DNA of 6,375 bases. Origin: Halovenus sp. GTDB lineage: Archaea > Halobacteriota > Halobacteria > Halobacteriales > Haloarculaceae. The stretch spans positions 1-6,375 of the forward strand of contig JAQCNG010000090.1 in assembly GCA_028275145.1 (NCBI GenBank). Direction: 5' to 3'. Both the position numbers and the translations under genes were made by a program. Positions 1-1,613 of this stretch are shown in pieces. Within the stretch, counting starts at the first letter, position 1. Each line of letters starts with the position of its first letter. A model generated the notes under the pieces. That model was not told the DNA's origin. It worked only from the letters and a program-made list of their open reading frames with translations, and did no database searches.

Positions 1-101
1 CCGTCCGACTCGACGACCTCGTCGATGAACGGTCCGATCTCGACGAACCGGATACGACCGTCCCCGTCTCGAACGAACGTGTGTTCCTCGCTGTCCACGC
101 T
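1..101 (-). other. N-terminal end of an intein inserted in GyrB (truncated by window edge)
   Basis: A protein-splicing element translated in frame with gyrB. Its first residue is Ser505 of the precursor, followed by [17 protein letters not shown] and then [16 protein letters not shown], 33 residues in all. It resembles splicing block A of archaeal inteins, for example polymerase inteins that begin S-I-L-P-E-E and continue with an FVRIGELID-like stretch (recalled, not searched). The upstream extein residue is M504. The expected +1 residue is the Thr of TDADVDG, which suits a Ser1 intein because +1 must be Ser, Thr or Cys. The site lies inside the TOPRIM catalytic motif, typical of inteins, which favour conserved active sites. 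The middle and C-terminal splicing blocks, and whether a LAGLIDADG homing endonuclease is present, lie outside the window. The start boundary is exact if the extein assignment is right. Confidence 0.9.
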
Positions 102-1613
102 CATCACCAGCACGTTCTCGTATCTGAGTTCGCTGATGTCGAACTCGTCACCGATGCCGGTGCCGAGCGCGGTGATGAGGTTGCGGATCTCGTTGTTCTC
201 GAGGATGCGGTCGAGGCGGTGTTTCTCGACGTTGAGTATCTTCCCCCGGATCGGCAGGATTGCCTGGAACTCGGGGTTACGGCCCTGCTTGGCGCTGCCG
301 CCGGCGCTGTCGCCCTCGACGACGAACAGTTCGGCGTCGCTCGGGTCCCGGGTCTGGCAGTCGGAGAGTTTGCCGGGGAGTGTGCTGGAGGCCAGGGCGG
401 ACTTGCGGCGGGTGAGTTCCTCTGCTTTCTGTGCGGCCTTTCGTGCCTGTGCCGCCTCGACGGCCTTGTTCACGATTGCCTCGGCCGTGTCGGGGTTCTC
501 CTCGAAGTAGGCACCGAGGTGGTCGTGCATCGCGGACTCGACGACCCCGCGGACCTCGCTGTTGCCGAGTTTCGTCTTTGTCTGGCCCTCGAACTGCGGG
601 TCCGGGTGTTTGACCGACAGCACCGCGGTGAGTCCCTCGCGGATGTCGTCGCCACGGAGGTTCTCGTCGAGGTCACGCAACAGGTCGTGGTCGGTCGCGT
701 AGTCGTTGACCACGCGGGTCAGGGCGGTCTTGAACCCGGTCATGTGGGTGCCGCCCTCGCGGGTGTTGATATTGTTCGCGAAGGCGTGCAGCGAGCCCTG
801 CAGTTCGTCGGTCGCCTGCAGGGCCACCTCCACGTGGATATCGCCGTCGCCGCTGGGCATCGGCGCGCTGTCCTCGATGTGAATTACCTCCTCGTGGAGG
901 GTGGTCTTTGTCTCGTTGAGGTAGGCGACGAACTCCCGGATACCCCCCTCGTACCGGAACTGCTGGTGCATGTCGTCGCGCTCGTCGTGGAGATGGATTT
1001 CGACGCCTCTGTTGAGAAAGGCGAGTTCGCGCAACCGGGTTTCCAGTGTCGAAAAAACGAAATCGGTTGTCTCGAATATCTCCTTGTCCGGCCAGAACCG
1101 GACGCTGGTGCCGGTCCCCTCGTCGGGTTCGAGGTCGCGGACCCGCTCGATGTCCCCCTCGGGTTGGCCGGCCTCGAAGCGGTGTCGCCAGAGCGCACCG
1201 TCGCGCTTGACCTCCACCTCGAGCCACCGCGAGAGCGCGTTCACCACCGAGACACCGACGCCGTGGAGTCCACCGGACACCTGATAGGATTTGCTGTCGA
1301 ACTTCCCGCCCGCGTGGAGCACGGTCATTATCACCTCCAGTGCCGGTCGGTCGTACTCCTCGTGGGTGTCGACCGGAATCCCCCGGCCGTCGTCGGTCAC
1401 CGACACGGAGTCGTCGTCGTGGATAGTCACCTCGATCTGCTCACAGTAGCCCGCAAGCGCCTCGTCGATGGCATTGTCGACGACCTCGTAGACAAGATGA
1501 TGGAGGCCACGCGCGTCCGTCGACCCGATGTACATCGCCGGGCGCTTCTGTACTGCCTGCAGCCCTTCGAGCACCTGTATCTGCCCTGCGCCGTACTCAG
1601 TCTCGTCGGACAT
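1..1613 (-). CDS. gyrB: DNA gyrase subunit B, N-terminal part, interrupted by an intein (3' end outside window)
   Basis: This is the ATPase subunit of DNA gyrase, which with GyrA introduces negative supercoils at the cost of ATP. The first 504 residues are normal GyrB. The GHKL ATP-binding fold has the Mg-binding Asn in EVVDNAID (N47), the DDGRGIP loop (74-80) and the GGLHGVG lid (114-120). A transducer region follows, then the first TOPRIM motif [13 protein letters not shown] from E433. After LRYENVLVM (ending M504) the expected TDADVDG motif is absent and the frame continues into intein sequence from S505 to the window edge. The start at 1613 gives [18 protein letters not shown], the usual haloarchaeal beginning; an ATG at 1630 is out of frame. 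A TATA box lies about 35 bases upstream and there is no Shine-Dalgarno sequence. The gene is divergent from mrp. The missing C-terminal extein and probable gyrA should lie to the left. Identity is very secure. Confidence 0.97.

Follow-up and report, generated by a model that had tools for sequence, protein, structure and literature searches.

The DNA stretch analyzed here (hereafter the window) comprises 6375 bases, the whole of contig C330 from a haloarchaeal draft genome (2.38 Mb in 366 contigs, 77% complete), and one end of it falls inside a gyrB gene. Its first 101 bases are very probably the start of a class 1 intein, predicted from sequence to be self-splicing, which lies between Met504 of GyrB and Thr-Asp-Ala-Asp. 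A reverse-strand reading frame (1613..3) encodes GyrB and then the insert without stop or frameshift, and the rest of the gene was found on a second contig, C5:

102..1613, reverse strand: GyrB N-extein, residues 1-504 (ATPase domain, transducer and first part of TOPRIM); Met504 at 104..102
1..101, reverse strand: N-terminal intein fragment (33 residues plus two bases) truncated where the contig stops; Ser505, which is Ser1 of the intein, at 101..99
C5 6174..4879, reverse strand: a 432-residue frame starting VRVSELDES, with 293 C-terminal intein residues, Thr and the GyrB C-terminus

An earlier note on this DNA had placed the insert at 1..104. The intein proper occupies 101..1, three bases less, and the rest of that claim stands: the reading frame, the profile matches, the C5 half and full-length copies agree on an intein that begins with Ser1 inside the TOPRIM domain, directly after Met504. 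That the insert runs off the window was also confirmed, as a contig end, since the window is all of C330.

A gyrB gene divided between two contigs

The NCBIfam gyrB models match the window protein as far as residue 505, and the Pfam Toprim match ends at residue 504, at profile position 62 of 96. The same profile picks up from position 63 on C5 (16.8 bits, below cut-off), which places the insert within the TOPRIM domain, immediately ahead of TDADVDG. In intein-free relatives [T/C/V]DADVDG directly follows the same ...RY..... stretch, much as the earlier note had stated for TDADVDG, and the interruption is residue-exact.

Taken alone, the 33 intein residues of the window matched no intein model in Pfam or NCBIfam; the identification as an intein rests on the C5 half and on relatives. 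When this genome (77% complete) was searched for a GyrB C-terminal domain, a single match came up, on C5 (6175 bases). There the intein ends in VYDFSVETDENFVAGVGGLCAHN, with its Asn at 5298..5296, and TDADVDGAH resumes in frame; the rest of GyrB follows up to its stop, and then gyrA begins. Much of what had been anticipated beyond the left end of the window was present on this contig: ...GLCAHN followed in frame by TDADVDG, hence a C-terminal AHN with Thr at position +1, and two LAGLIDADG motifs (LLGFWVADGS and LRGYLLGDGT), both with acidic residues. Pfam LAGLIDADG_3 scored 58.8 bits on the C5 half (cut-off 22.5).

Relatives were sought among about 5.8 billion proteins with the Halorubrum aquaticum intein as query. 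Scoring covered the 7993 candidates with the most words in common; 562 matched at E 1e-10 or better, and the best 120 of these 562 were analyzed. Four (P0021, P0042, P0073 and P0077) could not be parsed, which left 116; in P0073 both junctions are visible by eye, with TDADEDG. Two full-length proteins of 1120 residues, P0071 and P0072, are 99.8% identical to the window half and 100% and 99.3% identical to the C5 half, and a third, P0043 (1210 residues), is 98.7% and 98.4% identical to the two halves. At the level of sequence, these three near-identical proteins confirm the join of C330 and C5. P0043 has 90 extra residues, LADLRERR...WERGVSRPTVSNF...REYV, exactly between APESV and RVSELDES, and it carries an XRE/helix-turn-helix (HTH) domain that its nearest relatives P0071 and P0072 lack. 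The gap in the window's genome is thus 151 residues, or 241 if the HTH domain is present.

Ser1 was found in all 116 parsed relatives. The block B Thr-x-x-His, which falls within the gap of the window's genome, is TASH in P0043, P0071 and P0072, and its His is kept in 118/118 aligned inteins. One scan of named genomes returned 16 loci (Halorubrum, Halonotius, Halobacterium and Halobacteriales metagenome-assembled genomes). Fifteen have a whole or nearly whole intein at the same residue, 14 of them with the HTH domain, and 14 run on in frame to TDADVDG; the 16th, in QH_7_69_31, is truncated where its contig stops, 48 residues into the intein.

We infer both splicing and homing for this element. 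Ser1 would attack the Met504 peptide bond, a branched ester would form on Thr+1, Asn would cyclize and the two GyrB halves would be joined, so that gyrase would be active only after splicing. The freed intein would then cut intein-free gyrB at the same site and be copied in by repair, and the XRE/HTH domain may serve as an accessory DNA-contact domain of the endonuclease.

Some results weigh against this interpretation. Model confidence is low at both junctions (residues 504-509 and 981-992), Pfam Intein_splicing reaches 28.6 bits on the C5 half, below its 35.8 cut-off, as expected for half an intein, and the missing 151 (without HTH) or 241 (with HTH) residues, block B among them, were not found in the genome bin. 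A first model, built for the intein alone from 15 sequences, had a mean predicted local distance difference test score (pLDDT) of 57.7, and Foldseek named inteins for it at low TM-scores; it was relied on only for the HTH part (residues 181-260, ten-residue means 67-91).

Three other explanations were considered. An assembly join, or an inserted element other than an intein, would agree with a window that stops inside the insert and a gene split over two contigs. However, P0071, P0072 and P0043 hold both halves in one frame and 15 of the 16 named loci carry the insert at the same residue, which makes this explanation extremely improbable. It is also very unlikely that the intein is splicing-dead and gyrB a broken gene. 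Decay or assembly error does occur, as QH_2_65_14 has no C-extein start and a broken frame, and two inteins of the relative set lack the motif-2 Asp of LAGLIDADG. Across C330 and C5, by contrast, Ser1, His-Asn and Thr+1 are intact, the frame stays open through the end of GyrB, and a search of this genome, at its 77% completeness, gave no second GyrB C-terminal domain. The intein might instead be kept for a host benefit, as a conditional gyrase switch with the HTH domain as sensor or regulator. XRE domains are often regulators, and the insert does split the GyrB TOPRIM domain, but the intein is patchily distributed, changing 42 times on the extein tree, and has repeatedly lost the HTH domain; both fit a mobile element better, and we consider such a switch most unlikely.

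The window also holds the following:

1908-3026, forward strand: NUBPL/Mrp-type ATPase
3084-4073, reverse strand: DUF7347/DUF7351 protein
4234-6015, reverse strand: M50 protease with PDZ
6098-6346, reverse strand: small open reading frame with no Pfam match

Insertion site, spread and likely mobility

The window GyrB has an uninterrupted GDSAGGSAK, and the intein lies 65 residues further on. In the accessible part of PMC4071816, a survey of 118 halobacterial genomes, there is one gyrB allele, with members that include cyanobacteria and Halarchaeum acidiphilum. A GyrB under the name Halarchaeum acidiphilum (P0180) has an intein at GDSAGG|S (site a) only, and its TDADVDG is uninterrupted. We assume that P0180 is the Halarchaeum record of the published allele and that its cyanobacterial members share the same site. 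The guess in the earlier note that the window might show a known site did not hold, as far as it could be checked: on this comparison, the Met|Thr junction before DADVDG (site b) appears to differ from the published haloarchaeal gyrB site. The published allele resembles site b in its host protein and, in the part of PMC4071816 available, in its HN|S end, and differs in lying at GDSAGG|S with Cys1. Both can occur together, since a site-a intein is also present, by pattern, in 19 of the 116 site-b GyrBs.

Among known inteins, PI-TkoII (a PolB intein; PDB 2cw7, where it is called PI-PkoII) is 25% identical to the gyrB intein. Its host is a DNA polymerase, unlike GyrB. TliVMA (PDB 7qss/7qsu) combines HINT, homing endonuclease and accessory domains as most copies of the gyrB intein do, in the available part of its description (PMC8966425); its host is a V-ATPase, whereas the domain in the gyrB intein is recognized by Pfam HTH_3/HTH_31 and lost in close relatives. 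Site b was not found described in the accessible parts of PMC4071816, PMC9348778, PMC8966425, PMC3620165, PMC6390638 or PMC7776575, and no account of it was met in the literature searched, with subscription papers and InBase outside that scope. Two of these sources, as far as their available text goes, caution against regarding the site as new: 61 archaeal GyrBs with inteins were set aside in PMC9348778, with sites unnamed in that part, and PMC6390638 describes GyrB inteins from Beggiatoaceae as well as a mini-intein in the GyrB of Desulfonema.

We surveyed 391 genomes of the window's class, 390 of them with a GyrB match, and re-examined the 42 with two or more matches and 6 others. Site b is occupied in 17/391 genomes, spanning 4 families and 11 genera, site a in 19, and both in two (G006 and G265). 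The 16 site-b genomes besides the window's all have Ser1 and HN|Thr, with Met at -1 in 15 and Ala in one (G060); the HTH motif is present in 15 of these 16. In G006 (L039/L053) and G265 (L110) a single gyrB has two inteins, at GDSAGG|S and M|T, and the site-a intein of G006 carries what by eye looks like an endonuclease of HNH rather than LAGLIDADG type. The gyrB of another genome (L042, G052) lacks a stretch after residue 356, and the frame of its site-a intein never returns to GyrB.

The matches listed include, by their archaeal names, Haloplanus, Natronomonas, Halorussus and Methanonatronarchaeales, and on the bacterial side Bacteroidetes SW_9_63_38, Longimonas, Gemmatimonadota, Myxococcales, Synergistota, Litorilinea and Steroidobacteraceae. 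SW_9_63_38 and Longimonas share 82% extein identity and 51% intein identity, whereas SW_9_63_38 and the two haloarchaea compared share 58-59% and 61%. From this mismatch, the intein has likely moved apart from its host gene and across domains. Presence is patchy, and occupancy changes at least 42 times on the GyrB tree. Searched with the alignment of the intein, viral contigs gave one match (25% identity over residues 310-572) and no close viral carrier.

The HTH domain and the break in the assembly

An XRE/HTH domain lies between the splicing and endonuclease parts in 110/118 inteins, and HTH_3 scored above cut-off in 4 of the 6 relatives scanned. The other eight inteins lack the domain, with differing boundaries; five of them keep both LAGLIDADG acids and three do not. 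On a tree built without the HTH columns, the fewest changes are six (the placement of P0005, on a long branch, is unsure), which suggests that the domain was lost at least six times, a count that assumes it to be ancestral. Two losses are recent. P0043 differs from P0071 and P0072 by an exact 90-residue deletion between inteins that are 98% identical, and this loss likely falls within the window's own species. P0037 (572 residues) and the intein of QH_2_65_14 are 98% identical besides a 60-residue deletion and few changes. By sequence, then, the intein persists without a domain that is repeatedly lost.

At the QH_2_65_14 locus itself (L034, about 1619-1640; G009) the frame ends in ISTGT after GGICAH. 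TDADVDG is missing and GyrB picks up again, out of frame, from FYRHM, owing either to a deletion or to an error of assembly. At L036 (G043) a 434-residue intein at the same site has no HTH domain and both LAGLIDADG motifs eroded, which looks like late decay.

In the available part of PMC8966425, the TliVMA accessory domain is reported to resemble the 434 phage repressor helix-turn-helix and to be required for cutting an alternative site; in isolation it did not seem to add DNA affinity. By analogy with this domain, the HTH domain of the gyrB intein likely touches DNA during homing.

The polymorphism may also account for the broken gene. C5 starts at the point where proteins with and without the HTH domain begin to agree, that is, at the deletion junction. 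Its first base is the C before the GTC codon of VRVSEL, where the loci of 5/5 relatives have TAC (Tyr); the residue there is Tyr in P0043 and Ser in P0071 and P0072. An assembly graph containing the two forms would merge at this point. C330 breaks off within the codon that precedes a residue at which P0043 differs from P0071/P0072 (Gly/Glu). Both ends fit an assembly broken by co-existing forms, and it is likely that the assembler broke the gene where the two forms diverge. As P0071 matches the C5 half completely, the HTH-less form is the more likely one in the window's genome. HTH-bearing relatives most likely lived alongside it.

Two further considerations weigh against the overall interpretation: the base-exact branch point was deduced from proteins, P0043 and P0071 being known as proteins alone, and the 120 matches listed included no allele of this species that lacks the intein, the nearest intein-free one being 93% identical. 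It is possible, if on balance unlikely, that the contig ends in the intein by chance or low coverage and that the HTH polymorphism is unrelated. A draft in 366 contigs that is 77% complete would permit this, and no exact overlap of 8 to 199 bases was found between C330 and C5. Chance does not, however, predict that C5 should begin exactly where the two forms agree, with a preceding C that matches TAC at 5/5 loci, that C330 should stop in the codon before the Gly/Glu difference, or that the QH_7_69_31 contig should likewise end inside the same intein.

The middle of the window's intein was absent from the contigs of the genome bin in a search with the intein of relative P0001. That search gave weaker intein-like matches on C13, C236, C255 and C177, which by their look are other inteins; C13 has two such stretches in an 1870-residue frame, and the C177 match reached only E 0.056.

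Junction residues and implications

Residues at the empty site vary. Sixty chosen empty GyrBs have Met|Thr (36), Ala|Thr (18), Met|Cys (3) and Leu|Cys (3), and the 116 empty GyrBs among the 120 nearest to the window half have Met|Thr (41), Ala|Thr (31), Met|Val (26) and Met|Cys (18). Val in place of Thr before DADVDG was also seen at L008, L011 and L018, and Ser at L112 and L114, in two genomes with a site-a intein. On a tree of 278 near-full-length exteins (73 of the 116 occupied and 205 empty), built without the junction columns, Met|Thr is found in 71/73 occupied and 81/205 empty genes. In 30 independent pairs Met|Thr went with the intein 8.6 times, against 0.3, on average (median p 0.0078, 0.00098-0.125). 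In such pairs Met at -1 alone was weakly significant (median p 0.031) and Thr at +1 alone was not (median p 0.25). Since occupied genes also have Ala (G060 and P0026) or Leu (one protein) at -1, Met is not strictly needed.

Site preference, splicing compatibility or co-conversion of the flanks could each explain the Met|Thr bias. A more speculative idea, which we regard as doubtful, is that the intein sheds a detachable XRE targeting module once settled, while hosts change Met|Thr to Ala|Thr, Met|Val or Met|Cys and so avoid being invaded again. In that scenario Val would be unable to act as a splicing nucleophile, and the active-site motif of gyrase would be the battle line.

The kind of intein is known; its site, its spread and the natural pairs with and without the HTH domain appear to be new. 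For genome builders, it is a caution that intein polymorphism may split a housekeeping gene over two contigs. The two 98%-identical pairs that differ mainly by the HTH domain provide a naturally occurring test of the role that accessory domains play in homing, the question raised by TliVMA, and the Met|Thr pattern makes the evolution of uninvadable sites by hosts testable. With site b, GyrB, an enzyme essential to bacteria, would have a second intein site, one shared across domains and lying just before its catalytic acidic motif.
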